The notes under the pieces were generated by a model. It was not told where the DNA came from. It saw only the letters and a program-made list of their open reading frames with translations, and ran no database searches. Below, in pieces: positions 45,475 through 58,337 of a stretch of 64,000 nt of DNA (its first letter is position 1; every line of letters begins with the position of its first letter). The translations under genes and the position numbers were made by a program. Location of the stretch: contig JAPHRK010000055.1 of NCBI GenBank assembly GCA_026196105.1, positions 1 to 64,000 on the forward strand, in the 5' to 3' direction. Source of the DNA: Rhodospirillales bacterium. Its GTDB lineage: Bacteria > Pseudomonadota > Alphaproteobacteria > Rhodospirillales > JAPHRK01.

Positions 45475-45927
45475 GGCTTGCGACTGCAAGTCCCCACGTC
45501 GGCGTACGTGAGCCTGCGTAGCGCTTGAGCGCAGCAAGCATCGCTTGCGCAATTAACTAGTCCCGACTATATTAGGGGCGTCGGGCAACCGACTATGACG
45601 ATAAACGCTTTGTGTAATAGATATTGCGGACCAGGGGGCGGTACCCTGCGCCTCCACCATATTTTCCCAGTGTTTTAGGGATCTGCTGTTGCTTCAGGAC
45701 AGTTTGGAAATATGGGGGCGAAATAGGATCGACGTGTATTGAAAGACTTAGTTTTCGTCCGGTATTGTACCACCGTTACCGGGCTATTTTTATAGATGCC
45801 AACGATAATCGTATGGCTCCAGCAGCGATGGCCGCGTAAGCACCATCAAAGCGAATCTATGTAAATTCCTGTATTCCTGAGCGTTTATAGGTGCGGTCCG
45901 GAGGGCACCGATCAACCGAAGCCCTCC
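45475..45927 (+). ncRNA. ssrA: tmRNA, circularly permuted two-piece form (alpha type)
   Basis: Rescues stalled ribosomes. The acceptor piece comes first and ends in GCGCCTCCACCA at 45648-45659; the coding piece begins with GGGGGCGAAATAGGATCGAC at 45714. GGGGGCG pairs with CGCCTCC to make the acceptor stem, including the G3-U70 pair that marks alanine identity. A T-arm (CAGGG/CCCTG, loop GGCGGTA) precedes it. The tag frame at 45798-45839 reads ANDNRMAPAAMAA then stop. An 8-bp helix between pieces (ATAAACGC 45601-45608 with GCGTTTAT 45881-45888) supports the fold. Bases 45660-45713 are the removed spacer. The 5' limit is approximate. Confidence 0.92.
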
Positions 45928-45941
45928 ACTTTCTTTTTATT
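45900..45941 (+). terminator. Hairpin terminator after tmRNA
   Basis: GGAGGGC at 45900-45906 pairs with GCCCTCC at 45921-45927, followed by the T-rich run ACTTTCTTTTTATT. The hairpin may also be the last helix of the tmRNA coding piece. The stretch from about 45942 to 46205 shows no gene. Confidence 0.7.
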
Positions 45942-51997: not shown

Positions 51998-52294
51998 GCA
52001 CACCCCTAACGACAATTTAATGGATATTTCTTGGGCAGTTATTTTACTTTTACGTTAGTTTCGAGACTTCCTCAACATTTAACAAAATTTCTGCCTTGAG
52101 GATTTGGGTTTCCATAAGATTAAAAACAACCGTTTCATTCCTATCCCTTCAATAAAGTGCCAATGGCAGGGAATAATCTTCCTTTTTCCTTGCATCAAAT
52201 ATAAGGCGGTTTAACCTTTCAATGTTAGGGAAATTGGGTGGCGATGGTCAGCCCCTCGCTGCCTGGACTTGAATTGTTCTGGGAGGGAATATTT

Positions 52295-54322
52295 ATGACC
52301 AAAACCGTATCCGGCCCCCGTTGTGCCGCCATAGTTGGACCTTACTTAAGCGGTAAGACCACGTTACTTGAAGATATACTACACATGGTTGGCGCTACTG
52401 ACCGACGTGGGACGATTAAGGACGGAAATACCGTTGGGGACTCGTCTACTGAAGCCCGCTCCCGATCAATGAGCACTGAAATCAACGTCACCTCTATCAA
52501 TTACCTGGATGAGCCTTGGACAATTATTGATTGCCCTGGGTCGGTAGAGATTTCCCAAGACGGGCGTAATGCCATCATGGTTGCCGATATTGTCGTTGTC
52601 GTTTGTGAACCTACACCTGACCGAGCCATTACTGTTTCTCCCTGGCTACAAGTCCTTGATGATCATGACATCCCTCATATTATTTATATCAACAAGATGG
52701 ATACGCCCGCTGCATCAGTTAGAAGTACGTTCGAAGCCCTGCAAACCGTTTCGGATCGGCCTTTAATTTTACGGGAAATTCCGCTTCGAGAAGGGGATAA
52801 AGTTATTGGGCATGTAGACCTCGTAAGTGAAAGAGCTTATGGCTGGAACGAAGATAAACCCTCAACATTAATGCAGCTCCCCGACTCGGCCTCAGACGAG
52901 GAGCAAATTGCTCGCATAGAAATGCTTGAATCACTTGCAGATTTTGATGATGGCTTGATGGAAGAGCTACTTGAAGATGTCGTACCTTCAACAGATGAAA
53001 TCTATGAAAACCTCACCAAAGATTTGCAACAAGACCTCATTGTCCCCGTTTTCTTTGGTTCAGCAGAACACGAGAACGGAATCACACGGCTGTTAAAGGC
53101 TTTGCGTCATGAAACAGCCGAAGTTGATAAAACAGCTGATAGATTAGGTATTGATACGTCCAGCAATGAAACGATTGCTCAGGTTTTCAAAACTTTGCAT
53201 GCAGGTCACAGTGGTAAACTCTCCTTAGCAAGGGTTTGGTCTGGTGAACTAAAAGATGGGGATTCGCTCGGGGAAAACCGAGTTAGTGGTGTCGCCAAAA
53301 TGTTTGGGCGCCAAACCAACAAGTTAGCCAAAGCCGTAGCAGGTGACATTATCGCTCTTGCCCGTATGGACGAAGTCCAGACAAGTGATCTTCTGTCAAC
53401 TTCTGGCTCAGCCGAAGCCCCTTCCTGGCCCTCCCCTCTTACTCCTTTGTTCTCTTTTGCTATCCATGTAGAAAAGCAAGCCGATGAAGTGAAATTAATG
53501 GGGGCTCTACATAAGTTATCTGAAGAAGACCCCTCCCTTAGCTTTATCCAGAACGAAGATACCGGAGAGTTTCTCCTTCAAGGGCAAGGCGAAATCCATT
53601 TACAAATCGCCGCGGCTCGTCTCAAAAACGACTATAACTTGAGTATTGTCACTGAACGACCTCATGCGCCTTACAAAGAAACAATTCGCAAAGGCATTTC
53701 TCAACACGCACGTTACAAGAAACAAAGTGGTGGACATGGTGAGTTTGGAGATGTTCATATCGATATTAAGCCACTCCCTCGAGGTGAAGGTTTCTCTTAT
53801 AGTGATACCATCACTGGAGGAGTCGTCCCCAAGCAGTATATTCCGGCTGTAGAGAAAGGGGTGATTGATTATCTCAGACGAGGTCCACTAGGCTTCCAAG
53901 TTGTTGATCTTTCCGTTGTTTTAACCGATGGACAATACCATGCTGTTGATAGCTCCGACATGGCCTTCCAAAGAGCTGGAGCAGCTGCCATGCGGGAAGG
54001 TATGCCGCAATGTAGCCCGGTCTTATTAGAACCTATTTTAAACGTCTCAATCTCAATCCCCAATGAGTTCACCTCAAAAATTCAACGCCTTGTGAGTGGA
54101 CGCCGAGGGCAAATTCTTGGCTTTAATGCCAAAGAGGGCTGTAATGGTTGGGATGAGGTTAAGGCTATGATGCCTCAAGCCGAAACTGTTGACCTAATCA
54201 TTGAGCTGCGCTCTTTGACCTTAGGGGTTGGAACTTACGAGTATGAATTCGATCACCTTCAAGAGTTTACAGGTAAGCAAGCGGATCAAGTGGTAGAAGC
54301 ACGAGCTAAAGCTCAAAAATAA
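52295..54322 (+). CDS. Elongation factor G-like GTPase
   Basis: 675 residues with EF-G domain order. The P-loop is GPYLSGKT (G15-T22), which differs from the EF-G consensus GHVDSGKT; the DxxG motif is DCPG, the NKxD motif is NKMD. The switch I region is weak (STEINVTSI) and the usual RGITI is missing. Domain IV carries KKQSGGHGEFGDVHI. It is not linked to ribosomal protein genes, so it is a paralogue, not the main translocase; similar EF-G-like proteins occur in relatives. GGGAGGG lies just upstream of the chosen ATG; the frame extends to 52238. Confidence 0.9.
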   Translation: MTKTVSGPRCAAIVGPYLSGKTTLLEDILHMVGATDRRGTIKDGNTVGDSSTEARSRSMSTEINVTSINYLDEPWTIIDCPGSVEISQDGRNAIMVADIVVVVCEPTPDRAITVSPWLQVLDDHDIPHIIYINKMDTPAASVRSTFEALQTVSDRPLILREIPLREGDKVIGHVDLVSERAYGWNEDKPSTLMQLPDSASDEEQIARIEMLESLADFDDGLMEELLEDVVPSTDEIYENLTKDLQQDLIVPVFFGSAEHENGITRLLKALRHETAEVDKTADRLGIDTSSNETIAQVFKTLHAGHSGKLSLARVWSGELKDGDSLGENRVSGVAKMFGRQTNKLAKAVAGDIIALARMDEVQTSDLLSTSGSAEAPSWPSPLTPLFSFAIHVEKQADEVKLMGALHKLSEEDPSLSFIQNEDTGEFLLQGQGEIHLQIAAARLKNDYNLSIVTERPHAPYKETIRKGISQHARYKKQSGGHGEFGDVHIDIKPLPRGEGFSYSDTITGGVVPKQYIPAVEKGVIDYLRRGPLGFQVVDLSVVLTDGQYHAVDSSDMAFQRAGAAAMREGMPQCSPVLLEPILNVSISIPNEFTSKIQRLVSGRRGQILGFNAKEGCNGWDEVKAMMPQAETVDLIIELRSLTLGVGTYEYEFDHLQEFTGKQADQVVEARAKAQK

Positions 54323-54417: not shown

Positions 54418-54560
54418 AAAAAAAAGCCCGGCAACAATGTGCCGGGCGAGTCTAACAGGGAGGCTTCACGTCTGGGAGACGTAGGACCCTTCATCGAAGA
54501 AGGCCCCTCTACTCAAGCCAGAGCTTGAGGGAGACGAATTGTTGCGTCGCAACATCGTCT
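54418..54560 (-). ncRNA. Small RNA copy A (AbcR-like candidate)
   Basis: About 143 nt on the minus strand, starting near 54560. It folds into hairpins in series: AGACGA/TCGTCT around GTTGC/GCAAC; CTCAAGC/GCTTGAG; a GGGGCCTTC/GAAGGGTCC stem; ACGTCT/AGACGT with loop CCC; then a terminator GCCCGGC/GCCGGGC followed by T8. A linker GAAGCCTCCCTGTTAGACTC and the CTCCC in the fourth hairpin contain two anti-Shine-Dalgarno-like motifs. About 90 nt are identical to copy B apart from the terminator loop, while the first two stems differ by compensating changes. The tandem layout beside a VtlR-type LysR gene suggests AbcR (alpha-r15) sRNAs. Confidence 0.8.
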
Positions 54561-54567
54561 GAAAATA

Positions 54568-54597
54568 TTTATACATGTTGCAGTGCAATATGACCAA
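54568..54597 (-). promoter_or_regulatory. Promoter of small RNA A
   Basis: Minus-strand -35 TTGGTC at 54597-54592, 18-bp spacer, -10 TATAAA at 54573-54568 preceded by TG (extended -10). Predicted start near 54560. Confidence 0.65.
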
Positions 54598-54618
54598 TGA
54601 AATTTTCAAATACCAGAT

Positions 54619-54633
54619 ATGCGCAAAACGCAT
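54619..54633. promoter_or_regulatory. LysR-type operator upstream of small RNA A
   Basis: ATGCG-CAAAA-CGCAT is a perfect dyad with the T-N11-A LysR motif, centred 66 bp upstream of the predicted start of sRNA A. The same dyad occurs at the same distance before copy B. The LysR protein at 54902 is the obvious candidate binder. Confidence 0.7.
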
Positions 54634-54660
54634 AAGACCCTTAATACTTTAGTCGTATAT

Positions 54661-54802
54661 AAAAAAAAGCCCGGCCACAATGGGCCGGGCGAGTCTAACA
54701 GGGAGGCTTCACGTCTGGGAGACGTAGGACCCTTCATCGAAGAAGGCCCCTCTACTCAAGCCGAAACTTGAGGATAAGCGATGGTGCGGTGCAGCATCGC
54801 TT
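54661..54802 (-). ncRNA. Small RNA copy B (AbcR-like candidate)
   Basis: About 142 nt on the minus strand, starting near 54802 and ending in a T8 terminator. Bases matching copy A run from GCTTGAGTAGAGG through the terminator. The first hairpin differs in sequence but keeps its fold: AAGCGATG/CATCGCTT, with the inner CTGC and GCAC segments. The second is CTCAAG/CTTGAG. Copy B lies between copy A and the LysR stop, about 240 bp upstream of copy A. Tandem duplicates of this kind are a feature of AbcR1/AbcR2. Expression is not shown by the sequence. Confidence 0.8.
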
Positions 54803-54809
54803 GAAAAAG

Positions 54810-54838
54810 ACCATAAAAGATGGTTACCAGGATAACAA
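54810..54838 (-). promoter_or_regulatory. Promoter of small RNA B
   Basis: Minus-strand -35 TTGTTA at 54838-54833, 17-bp spacer, -10 TATGGT at 54815-54810. Predicted start near 54802. Confidence 0.65.
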
Positions 54839-54860
54839 ATGCCTTTTCACCAAGGCTGAT

Positions 54861-54875
54861 ATGCGCAAGTCGCAT
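54861..54875. promoter_or_regulatory. LysR-type operator upstream of small RNA B
   Basis: ATGCG-CAAGT-CGCAT, the same dyad as before copy A, with T-N11-A, centred 66 bp upstream of the predicted sRNA B start. The flanking GATATGCGCAA and CTTAA blocks are also conserved between copies although most of the surrounding sequence is not. Confidence 0.7.
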
Positions 54876-54901: not shown

Positions 54902-55807
54902 CTACTTACGGGCTCGCTTACCTACTCTGGAAAAGGCTTGAAGCAGATAATCCCGCAATACCTTAATCCGCATTGAGTGGCGTTGTTCTTCAGGATAAAC
55001 AAAGTATATCTCTGTTTCTGGGCCTTCGACTTCAGGCAGGACGGGAATCAAATTTGCAGCCCCTAAATGCCCCATATAACCTGGTAGAAGCCCTAATCCG
55101 ATACCGTTTTGCACTGCTTTGAAGATACCGTAGATATTATTAATCTCAACAATGGCATGACGAGGCTTTTCTGGGTTTGCCCCAACCTCTAAGAGATAAT
55201 TCAGGTTTGCGGTCATAGGAAGGTCCCCCGCCCCATAGACCACCAAGCGATGGTCATCTAAATCTTGCGGGGTTTTAGGCATTCCATAATCTTTGACATA
55301 CTCAGGAGAGGCATAGATTTGAAAATCTAATGTTGCTAAGTGGCGCTGAATTAAATCAGGCTGAGTTGGCTGACTTAAACGAATTGCAACATCAGCCTCC
55401 CGCATGGCTAAATCAACCTCACCATCAGTCAAATGGAGATTGACATCAATATCAGGGTAAAGATCAATGAACCCCTTCATATGGGGCGTGAGCCAAACTG
55501 AGCCAAAGCCAATTGTCGTGGTGATCTTTAAAGGACCTGTGGGACGCTCTTTACTCTCATTAAGTTGAGCCTCAACCATGGCTAGCTTGCTAAAAATCTC
55601 CCGAACAGTGTTATCCAGTAACTCTCCTTGCTCCGTTAAAAGCAACCCACGGGCATGGCGGTGGAAAAGATGGCAGTTCAGACTAGCTTCCAAAGCACTG
55701 ATTTGACGACTGACTGCCGATTGGCTGAGGTTTAGAACCTCTCCGGCATGAGTAAAGCTGCCCGCGTCAGCAACCGAATGAAATATTCGAAGTTTGTCCC
55801 AGTCCAT
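54902..55807 (-). CDS. lsrB: LysR family regulator, LsrB/VtlR-type
   Basis: 301 residues. The N-terminal winged HTH (MDWDKLRIFHSVADAGSFTHAGEVLNLSQSAVSRQ in parts) closely resembles LsrB of Sinorhizobium and VtlR of Brucella, including FHRHARGLLLTEQGELL. The effector domain follows (about 90-301). Adjacent trxB is the same neighbour as in rhizobia, and VtlR directly activates AbcR2. Only one Cys (about 45, in the DNA-binding region) is present, so the Cys-based redox sensing reported for S. meliloti LsrB is unlikely to be conserved. It lies 32 bp downstream of trxB and is probably cotranscribed. Confidence 0.88.
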   Translation of the reverse strand: MDWDKLRIFHSVADAGSFTHAGEVLNLSQSAVSRQISALEASLNCHLFHRHARGLLLTEQGELLDNTVREIFSKLAMVEAQLNESKERPTGPLKITTTIGFGSVWLTPHMKGFIDLYPDIDVNLHLTDGEVDLAMREADVAIRLSQPTQPDLIQRHLATLDFQIYASPEYVKDYGMPKTPQDLDDHRLVVYGAGDLPMTANLNYLLEVGANPEKPRHAIVEINNIYGIFKAVQNGIGLGLLPGYMGHLGAANLIPVLPEVEGPETEIYFVYPEEQRHSMRIKVLRDYLLQAFSRVGKRARK

Positions 55808-55839: not shown

Positions 55840-56802
55840 TTATTCAGCAGCCTCTTGTGCTTCCATTTCAGCCAAGAATTTTTCAGCTTCTAGAGCACTC
55901 ATGCAGCCTGTTCCCGCTGCTGTTACCGCTTGGCGGTAAACTTTATCCTGTACATCTCCAGCCGCAAATACACCCGGAATACTTGTCCGAGGTGTTCCCG
56001 ACGTCGTTACAATGTAGCCTTCTTCATCCATGGTCAACTGGTCTTTGAATAAGTCTGTGTTGGGATTATGCCCGATTGCAATGAAAACACCATCAACTGC
56101 AAGCTTACTCGTTTCGCCTGTTTTGACGTTTTTCAAGCTCAAACCAGTGACCCCCGGCATTGGGCCTTCGCCAAGAATTTCTTCAACTACCGTATCCCAA
56201 GCCATTTCAATTTTTTCATTATTTAGGAGGCGGTCTTGAAGAATTTTCTCAGATCTTAGTTCATTACGCCTATGTATCAAAGTGACTTTGCTGGCAAAAT
56301 TAGTCAGAAAGAGAGCTTCCTCAACGGCAGTATTCCCACCACCAACAACGGCAATTTCTTTTTCACGATAGAAGAAACCATCACAGGTAGCACAGGCCGA
56401 AACACCTTGTCCCTGAAAGGTGGTTTCCCCCTCCAAGCCAAGCCATTTAGCTGAAGCACCAGTGCAGATAACCAAAGTATCACCTGTATAGATATCACCA
56501 GAATCACCAACAAGCTTAAAGGGACGTTCATTCAAGCGGGCTTCAACAATGGTATCTTCATGCATCACCGTACCAACATTTTCAGCCTGAGCCTGCATTT
56601 GCTCCATGAGCCACGGACCTTGGACTGCTTCAGCAAAACCAGGGTAATTTTCAACATCTGTTGTAATGGTCAATTGCCCACCAGGTTGGATACCTTTAAC
56701 GAGCATAGGCTTCAAATTGGCGCGCGCTGCATAAATTGCTGCTGTGTAGCCTGCAGGACCGGAGCCAATAATCAACACTTTGGCGTGATGAGTGGTAGAC
56801 AT
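55840..56802 (-). CDS. trxB: Thioredoxin reductase
   Basis: 320-residue FAD enzyme that reduces thioredoxin with NADPH. FAD motif GSGPAGYTAAIYAARA (about 14-29), redox pair C137/C140 in CATCDGFF, NADPH motif GGGNTAVEEALFL and the C-terminal FAD contact GVFAAGDVQDKVYRQA are complete. It heads a trxB-lysR pair, upstream of the two small RNAs. Confidence 0.97.
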   Translation of the reverse strand: MSTTHHAKVLIIGSGPAGYTAAIYAARANLKPMLVKGIQPGGQLTITTDVENYPGFAEAVQGPWLMEQMQAQAENVGTVMHEDTIVEARLNERPFKLVGDSGDIYTGDTLVICTGASAKWLGLEGETTFQGQGVSACATCDGFFYREKEIAVVGGGNTAVEEALFLTNFASKVTLIHRRNELRSEKILQDRLLNNEKIEMAWDTVVEEILGEGPMPGVTGLSLKNVKTGETSKLAVDGVFIAIGHNPNTDLFKDQLTMDEEGYIVTTSGTPRTSIPGVFAAGDVQDKVYRQAVTAAGTGCMSALEAEKFLAEMEAQEAAE

Positions 56803-56964: not shown

Positions 56965-57576
56965 TTAGAGCTTATCAGCATTGCTTGAAAGGTATTCTGC
57001 AACCCCATCAGGAGTGGCTGTCATACCATCATCACCTTTGTTCCAACCAGCGGGGCAAACTTCACCGTGTTCTTCATGGAACGCAAGGGCATCAACCATA
57101 CGAATGGCTTCATCAACATTACGGCCGAGAGGAAGGTCGTTAACGACTTGGTGTCGTACGTTTCCTTCTTTATCGATCAAGAATGTACCACGTAGGGTAA
57201 CAGCATCATTGATCAAAACGCCGTAGTCTTTACCAATGCTTTTGGTTAAGTCAGCAACCATGGGGAATTGAACATTACCCAAGCCACCTTCATTAACAGG
57301 CGTGTTTTTCCAGGCCAAGTGGGTGAAGTGTGAATCAACACTCACAGCAACAACTTTAACACCACGTTCTTCAAATGCTTTCATACGATGATCGAAAGCT
57401 AAAATTTCAGATGGGCACACAAAGGTGAAATCCAGTGGGTAGAAGAAAACTAAGCCATAAGAACCTTTTAGGTAAGACTTTAGGTTGAATTCTTCATCAA
57501 TTGAATTGTCAGGCATTACTGCTGGCGCGGTAAAGTCAGGGGCTTCTTGGGTGACCAGTACACGTGCATCGCTCAT
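56965..57576 (-). CDS. Peroxiredoxin, typical 2-Cys (AhpC/Prx1)
   Basis: 203-residue cytosolic peroxidase. Peroxidatic Cys C54 is in FTFVCPSEIL; the resolving Cys is in EVCPAGW near the C-terminus. The size and the GGLGNVQFPMVAD region fit the Prx1/AhpC subgroup, presumably reduced through thioredoxin and TrxB next door. GAGGAAA precedes the ATG. Confidence 0.95.
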   Translation of the reverse strand: MSDARVLVTQEAPDFTAPAVMPDNSIDEEFNLKSYLKGSYGLVFFYPLDFTFVCPSEILAFDHRMKAFEERGVKVVAVSVDSHFTHLAWKNTPVNEGGLGNVQFPMVADLTKSIGKDYGVLINDAVTLRGTFLIDKEGNVRHQVVNDLPLGRNVDEAIRMVDALAFHEEHGEVCPAGWNKGDDGMTATPDGVAEYLSSNADKL

Positions 57577-57606
57577 TTGGATTTCCTCTTTTTACTAGGT
57601 GACGTT

Positions 57607-57628
57607 GTTTTGTTTCTTAGAACAAAAC
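57607..57628 (-). promoter_or_regulatory. Hairpin in the peroxiredoxin mRNA leader
   Basis: GTTTTGTT and AACAAAAC form a perfect 8-bp inverted repeat around TCTTAG (read on the plus strand), between the peroxiredoxin promoter and its start codon. It could be an operator or a 5' UTR stem; function unknown. Confidence 0.5.
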
Positions 57629-57640
57629 TAAACTGGCCAC

Positions 57641-57669
57641 ACCATACTGATTCGATCTTACCGTTTCAA
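57641..57669 (-). promoter_or_regulatory. Promoter of the peroxiredoxin gene
   Basis: Minus-strand -35 TTGAAA at 57669-57664, 17-bp spacer, -10 TATGGT at 57646-57641. About 65 bp upstream of the start codon. Confidence 0.6.
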
Positions 57670-57783
57670 GAGGTAAACAGTGGATAAGTTGCAATTAAAA
57701 CACCCTTTTTAGCCACTTTTCAAACTCAGGAAAAATATAATAGGCTTGTTCAATCCAGTAGTTTTCTGTAATATTATTGCGTG

Positions 57784-57804
57784 CACGAGAAATATACTTT
57801 CGTG
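57784..57804. promoter_or_regulatory. Dyad just upstream of lrp, possible Lrp operator
   Basis: CACGAGAAATATACTTTCGTG: arms CACGA and TCGTG with A/T-rich centre, 33 bp before the Lrp start. Autoregulated Lrp genes commonly have such A/T-centred dyads; binding is inferred. Confidence 0.5.
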
Positions 57805-57836
57805 ACAGAATAATTCGGGAGCTTTGAGGGCTGGAA

Positions 57837-58337
57837 ATGCAGCGAGTTAAATTAGACAGGATTGATCGTCGTATTCTTTCCGATCTCCAAACAGATGGCA
57901 GAATGACCAATGTAGAATTGGCACGTCGTGCGGGGATTTCAGCACCACCATGCTTACGCCGAGTACGGGCTCTTGAAGATTCTGGTTATATCAAAGGATA
58001 TCATGCAGAACTTGACCCCGGAACTCTTGGTTTTCACGTGACTGTCTTCGCCCATGTCGGCTTAAACAGCCAAGCAGAACCCGACCTTAAAGCTTTTGAG
58101 GACCTTGTTAGCCAATGGCCTGAAGTGCGTGAATGCCATATGCTGGCTGGTGAGACTGACTTTTTGCTTAAGGTCGTGGAGCAAGATTGGGATTCTTATC
58201 AAAGCTTCCTGACAGAGCGCCTTACAGCGGCTCCAAATGTTAATCACGTCAAGTCAGCTCTTGCTGTGCGCACAGCAAAAAACCGCCCAGGTGTCCCTTT
58301 GGCGGTTCATGTTCCCGATGGGGAAGATGACAAATAG
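57837..58337 (+). CDS. Lrp/AsnC family transcriptional regulator
   Basis: 166 residues: N-terminal HTH (VKLDRIDRRILSDLQTDGRM... NVELARRAGISAPPCLRRVRALEDSGYI in parts) and a C-terminal RAM/ACT ligand domain (about 75-150). Typical full-length Lrp (leucine-responsive) form. Divergent from the peroxiredoxin gene, which is a possible target. GGG and GGAAATG precede the start. Confidence 0.92.
   Translation: MQRVKLDRIDRRILSDLQTDGRMTNVELARRAGISAPPCLRRVRALEDSGYIKGYHAELDPGTLGFHVTVFAHVGLNSQAEPDLKAFEDLVSQWPEVRECHMLAGETDFLLKVVEQDWDSYQSFLTERLTAAPNVNHVKSALAVRTAKNRPGVPLAVHVPDGEDDK

Follow-up and report, generated by a model that had tools for sequence, protein, structure and literature searches.

The locus lies in a window of 64,000 nucleotides, which is the whole stretch of Rhodospirillales DNA analysed here. 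Two tandem small RNA genes, copy A and copy B, are located on the minus strand between a convergent elongation factor G-like gene and a lysR gene, and trxB is upstream of lysR. In the features below, R1 refers to a covariance model built from 43 sequences of the order, and the basis of each assignment is given in brackets.

52238..54322, plus strand: elongation factor G-like gene, convergent neighbour (NF009379, 1021 bits; same place in many relatives)
54418..54560, minus strand: sRNA copy B, distal, ~143 nt (fold z -4.69; R1 93.2 bits; homologues in the order)
54426..54447, minus strand: intrinsic terminator of copy B (consensus scan)
54448..54467, minus strand: linker of copy B, GAAGCCUCCCUGUUAGACUC (fold; copy comparison; alignment A2)
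54468..54482, minus strand: hairpin of copy B, ACGUCUCCCAGACGU (fold; covariation)
54568..54573, minus strand: predicted -10 box of copy B, TATAAA (sequence and family-wide spacing from the dyad centre)
54610..54622, minus strand: LsrB box of copy B, GCATATCTGGTAT, about -61 to -49 (exact GCAT-N3-TG-N3-T)
54619..54633, minus strand: LysR dyad of copy B, ATGCG-N5-CGCAT, ATGCGTTTTGCGCAT, centre at about -65 (genome pattern scan; family-wide motif)
54661..54803, minus strand: sRNA copy A, lysR-proximal, ~143 nt (fold z -5.18; R1 93.1 bits; homologues in the same place in the order)
54669..54690, minus strand: intrinsic terminator of copy A (consensus scan)
54691..54710, minus strand: linker of copy A, GAAGCCUCCCUGUUAGACUC, mostly unpaired, main predicted seed
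54711..54725, minus strand: hairpin of copy A, ACGUCUCCCAGACGU, with a CCC loop (fold; covariation helix 2, 99% of cells paired)
54810..54815, minus strand: predicted -10 box of copy A, TATGGT (sequence and family-wide spacing from the dyad centre)
54852..54864, minus strand: element of copy A resembling the LsrB box, GCATATCAGCCTT (differs from GCAT-N3-TG-N3-T at one position)
54861..54875, minus strand: LysR dyad of copy A, ATGCG-N5-CGCAT, ATGCGACTTGCGCAT, centre at about -65 (genome pattern scan; family-wide motif)
54902..55807, minus strand: lysR, gene of an LsrB/VtlR-type LysR regulator that presumably activates copies A and B (Pfam HTH_1 and LysR_substrate; 9HH1)
55840..56802, minus strand: trxB, thioredoxin reductase, upstream of lysR (TIGR01292, 416.8 bits, cut-off 343; synteny)

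A peroxiredoxin gene and a divergent gene for an Lrp/AsnC-type regulator adjoin trxB (window positions 56965-58337), so that thiol-redox genes are frequent around the locus. Elsewhere in the window, positions 45541-45930 of the plus strand hold a permuted two-piece alphaproteobacterial tmRNA gene.

Structure and conservation of the two copies

An earlier, sequence-only reading of this DNA had described two homologous minus-strand genes of ~140 nt with about 90 identical bases, each with four hairpins and an intrinsic terminator, and both genes are present. From the second stem onward, 108 of 113 bases are the same in copies A and B, with a longest unbroken identical block of 79 bases. Folding gives stems 1-4, each a hairpin, followed by the terminator hairpin in both copies, and none of 200 shuffles folds as well as either copy. 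The length of 143 nt results from setting the start 7 nt past the -10 box. Compensatory changes had been claimed for the first two stems. Stem 1 indeed differs on both sides between the copies, and so does one pair of the terminator stem, but stem 2 has a single one-sided change (T-G / C-G).

The fourth hairpin of each RNA carries a CUCCCA motif, and the linker contains CCUCCCUG. The description as tandem RNAs of the anti-Shine-Dalgarno type is supported by the sequence. The CUCCC of the hairpin is mainly paired, and its only open part is the CC(C) loop. The linker CCUCCCUG is invariant across alignment A2. The helices of A2 have 86.6% of their cells paired, compared with 78.5% after shuffling and 27-47% when the helices are slid; both-side changes number 83 versus 35 in shuffled alignments, and the covariation is 0.300 versus 0.165, with 0 of 500 shuffles being as high. 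As related sequences may exceed shuffles, the slid control is of weight as well, and the two controls agree. Small open reading frames of 20-55 aa overlap the RNAs; they are probably not coding, as the indels and covariation of the family argue against it.

A DNA search with copy B detected relatives in 52 of the 60 genomes of the order. Nearly all of these RNAs lie 3' of a lysR orthologue on the same strand with trxB upstream, an EF-G gene is often convergent, and a minority of the loci have tandem copies. At the level of the class, a protein search at E 1e-60 recovered a lysR orthologue from 81 of 142 genomes, mostly as one match per genome, and most of the best 30 loci are again arranged as trxB-lysR-RNA. 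The R1 model matches 145 of 289 class genomes. When 80 named LysR-centred loci were inspected, trxB was detected in 76 and an R1 match of at least 24 bits in 54. Every one of these matches lies downstream of lysR and has the same orientation as that gene. The genera among the loci with R1 include Magnetovibrio, Kiloniella, Pelagibius, Tistlia, Reyranella, Sneathiella, and Oceanibacterium. The trxB-lysR-sRNA synteny is kept in related genomes, and so are the dyads and the stems, the loss of which in close relatives would have spoken against the sequence-only reading.

In class genomes such as G092, G087, G096, and G292, R1-type RNAs are also found at distances from the lysR orthologue that range from several kb to megabases, and G292 has six copies. 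Hence, the family also spreads outside its slot behind lysR. In its own genome, the full element occurs only at copies A and B, and a third, weaker R1 match has the 3' module alone. This match (36.5 bits; L095:1102-1213, minus strand; G000:C59:1102-1213) consists of a hairpin, a ACCTCCCTGTCAAACTTGCC linker, and a terminator, and follows immediately on the 3' side of a DUF1192 gene (PF06698, 62.5 bits), away from lysR. It is a candidate SorX-like 3'-UTR small RNA with the same seed module.

Operators, promoters and the LysR regulator

In front of both copies there is a dyad whose centre is 65 bp from the predicted start (about 66 bp in the sequence-only reading), and about -65 is the usual position from which LysR-type regulators activate. 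The extended pattern ATGCRN5YGCATRNCNG has four sites in the 3.9-Mb genome, two of which are the promoters of copies A and B, and the same pattern read backwards has none. One of the remaining two sites is within a coding frame. The other is an intergenic LsrB-type extended dyad preceding a multihaem-cytochrome-like gene (L227, G000:C75:17313-17332), a possible further LysR target. No extended pattern was found before DUF1127 genes in the own genome.

Alignment of the family dyads gave the consensus AGSYATGCR-N5-YGCATRKCWG-N3-TG. The strict form ATGC-N7-GCAT lies within 190 bp upstream of 47 of the 61 named copies and is missing from 14. As to controls, 0.56 was expected from shuffles, the stretch inside lysR gave 0, and the downstream stretch, which in some cases runs into the promoter of the next copy, gave 3. 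TATAAT-like hexamers starting 48-59 nt past the dyad centre are found in 40 of 57 cases, with 6 expected (95 distinct sites), and the spacing from the dyad centre to the -10 box peaks at 53-57 nt. This fixed spacing across the family puts the dyad centre near -65. As to the earlier claim that each copy has its own promoter, a sigma-70 consensus scan found none for copy A or B; the -10 boxes are our own placement and are backed by the family-wide spacing.

In the S. meliloti abcR1 promoter, the LsrB consensus GCAT-N3-TG-N3-T is located between -61 and -49, and deletion of this box lowers the activity more than 22-fold (PMC8844928). The AbcR-type promoters of Roseibium carry almost the same extended box as the one seen here (AGCATTGCAGAAAATGCATAGCAGATTTG). 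The closest solved chain to the neighbouring LysR is A. tumefaciens LsrB (9HH1, E 1.9e-80, residues 1-289), followed by the next chain at 1e-30. Together with the LsrB-type boxes at both promoters, this bears out the assignment to the LsrB/VtlR type made in the sequence-only reading. LsrB has two conserved cysteines, C144 and C273, and C273 is required for H2O2 resistance (PMC11975290). Their equivalents here are valines at 140 and 270, and Cys45 is the sole cysteine of the protein. Hence, the signal read by this LysR cannot be the cysteine switch of LsrB. C144 and C273 are also missing from most LysR orthologues in the named set, and we regard redox switching through these cysteines as belonging to some members only and not as what defines the type. 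Our claim for the neighbouring LysR is therefore that it is an LsrB/VtlR orthologue, and not that it is a redox switch of the LsrB kind.

Identity of the RNAs and alternative readings

Copies A and B are probably LysR-activated, trans-acting anti-Shine-Dalgarno RNAs of a VtlR/LsrB-type circuit, in which a separate RNA family would act in an AbcR-like manner. The most serious competitor, which we regard as possible but doubtful, is that they are true AbcR (alpha-r15) orthologues that have diverged, i.e., simply AbcR in another order. The gene order had been taken to differ from the known one, but trxB-vtlR-abcR1-abcR2 of A. tumefaciens (PMC7486931) is the order here, and this speaks for AbcR, as does the shared promoter box. 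In the same direction, the RNA in the Pleomorphomonas slot passes the ar15 cut-off with 44.3 bits while R1 is weak on the same stretch (15.5 bits), and the slot RNAs of Labrenzia and Roseibium aestuarii match both models weakly (29.6-30.9 bits with ar15; 17.5-21 bits with R1 for Labrenzia/Roseibium). However, these weak R1 alignments rest mostly on the terminator and hence do not establish common ancestry with AbcR. The covariance search with Rfam ar15 (RF02345, cut-off 40 bits), by which membership of AbcR/alpha-r15 was to be checked, found nothing between 54300 and 54920 with E values of up to 10 allowed. The anti-Shine-Dalgarno motifs of AbcR are aSD1, CUCCUCCC, in the loop of the 5' hairpin, and aSD2, UUCCCCUC (PMC8844928); both are absent from copies A and B, and the order of the hairpins differs. 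At family cut-offs, the whole of Rfam gave no match in the sRNA intergenic region.

As common ancestry of R1-type RNAs and AbcR is not established by the alignments, our claim is that the RNAs work like AbcR, and not that they are AbcR; the best reading is an unnamed sRNA family of its own with an AbcR-like action. From the candidate VtlR-AbcR system of the sequence-only reading, the VtlR/LsrB-type regulator and its boxes are retained, but not the AbcR membership. The ar15 model was also run over 190 class genomes with only 18 candidates scored per genome, and none matched, which is no proof of absence. An ar15-like match at G000:C64 (28.9 bits) has neither an anti-Shine-Dalgarno motif nor a lysR neighbour and was discarded as chance.

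An unlikely alternative is that A and B are housekeeping sRNAs independent of LysR, the dyads being remnants or serving another use such as lysR feedback. R1 RNAs far from lysR in some genomes would fit this, and AbcR2 of S. meliloti is driven by RpoH1 and not by LsrB. However, both tandem copies have their own dyad at equal distance, and the recurrence of the dyad and its fixed spacing to the -10 box across the family argue for a role in transcription of the RNAs. Less probable still, the stretch could be a processed 3' UTR of the trxB-lysR mRNA without independent transcription. The copies are on the lysR strand directly 3' of lysR, and SorX, which is a 3'-UTR product, has a similar 3' module (PMC6238624). 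Against this, copy B sits beyond the terminator of copy A, a dyad and a -10 box at fixed spacing precede each copy, and the SorY-like RNAs found in the slot are of a kind that is transcribed from a separate promoter. That the two near-identical tandem copies are a dispersed repeat or mobile element deserves almost no credence, as the full element is nowhere else in the genome and both its place and its covariation are conserved across orders.

Proposed mode of action and comparison with known systems

In the circuit that we favour, the LysR encoded by the neighbouring trxB-lysR pair would bind the dyad at -65 of each copy, as the conserved sites suggest, and would activate transcription from an ordinary -10 promoter. 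The transcripts would end at the intrinsic terminators. The open CCUCCCUGUU linker, perhaps together with the CCC hairpin loop, would then pair with ribosome-binding sites of mRNAs, presumably with the use of Hfq, and lower their translation. The likeliest mRNAs would be those of amino-acid uptake genes, namely aapJ and livK-type binding proteins. The family would thereby fill the chromosomal slot and the part held by AbcR in Hyphomicrobiales.

S. meliloti AbcR silences livK and aapJQMP. Among the ribosome-binding sites of 30 substrate-binding proteins in the own genome, the top one is that of the gene L240 (GCGAGUCUACAGGGAG), with a predicted extended-linker pairing of -29.7 kcal/mol; a shorter pairing of -23.9 kcal/mol was reached by 3 of 20,000 single-base shuffles. 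The L240 protein is read as AapJ-like from its length and sequence, and its nearest NCBIfam families are lysine/arginine/ornithine binding proteins, below the cut-off. Compared with 106 other genes, eleven LivK-type (PF13458) proteins show better pairing (p 0.002; p 0.01 once Shine-Dalgarno strength is corrected for), and permuted flanks are as good in 14 of 300 cases. SBP_bac_3 proteins as a group pair no better than other genes (p 0.75). As two families were tested, the LivK-type signal is modest. Over 30 genomes of the order, some (G005, G032, G029, and G054) show a strong aapJ pairing and others show none, with p 0.05 when the own genome is left out. These predictions only suggest aapJ- and livK-type genes as targets of copies A and B.

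Until now, most knowledge of the circuit has come from Brucella, Agrobacterium, and Sinorhizobium. If our reading is true, the LsrB/VtlR-AbcR circuit, so far examined in pathogens and symbionts within a single order, reaches many mostly free-living Alphaproteobacteria, with a widespread RNA family that is absent from Rfam 15. In the open-access literature, we found nothing on this RNA family outside Rhizobiales. LsrB has recently been called unique to Rhizobiales on the basis of a few representative species (PMC11975290), and the LsrB/VtlR orthologues described here contradict this. They also raise the question of what the regulator senses where the redox cysteines are missing.

Among the Rfam matches below cut-off in the region, SorX (RF02784; 38.0 and 33.5 bits against a cut-off of 46.6) comes first, followed by SorY (RF02651; 26.6 bits, cut-off 111) and suhB. 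SorY and SorX of Rhodobacter sphaeroides have the module of a CCUCCCUGUU-GAC linker and a terminator in common with copies A and B, but they are shorter and without the 5' stems. Their reported targets are transporter mRNAs (malate and spermidine), and they are assigned to the RpoE/RpoH sigma factors in the literature. SorY-like RNAs were found directly 3' of a lysR orthologue, behind an ATGC-N7-GCAT dyad, in G081 (L224, 62.1 bits) and G212 (L261, 52.8 bits), both below the cut-off of 111. This suggests that SorY may be the VtlR-slot RNA in these two genomes, which we guess to be Rhodobacterales.

The MmgR/suhB sRNA (RF00519, in one Rfam clan with ar15) scores 26 bits here and 31-34 bits on slot RNAs of relatives, with a cut-off of 41, and unlike copies A and B it is not known from an LsrB-linked location. 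In enterobacteria, the LysR-type redox regulator OxyR adjoins the gene of the sRNA OxyS; the RNA is unrelated and the locus different, so that the likeness is an analogy only. AbcR1/AbcR2 with LsrB/VtlR of Agrobacterium, Sinorhizobium, and Brucella have in common with the system here the trxB-lysR-sRNA order, the tandem pair, an LsrB box between about -61 and -49, the terminator, the predicted amino-acid uptake targets, and two anti-Shine-Dalgarno stretches, one in a hairpin and the other in a single-stranded linker. In contrast to AbcR, copies A and B have extra 5' stems and lack the CUCCUCCC loop, the UUCCCCUC motif, and an ar15 match. The regulator here is without the redox cysteines. Both copies here carry the box, whereas a response to the regulator has been demonstrated for AbcR1 alone in S. 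meliloti and A. tumefaciens, and for AbcR2 in Brucella. We tentatively propose, with slightly less than even confidence, that trxB-lsrB-sRNA is an ancient arrangement in Alphaproteobacteria with one LysR-activated anti-Shine-Dalgarno slot. Its occupants, AbcR in Hyphomicrobiales, a SorY-like RNA in Rhodobacterales-like genomes, and the unnamed family described here in Rhodospirillales as well as further orders, may share an ancestor or may have been replaced under an unchanged operator, and redox sensing by cysteines would be a later addition in Rhizobiales.
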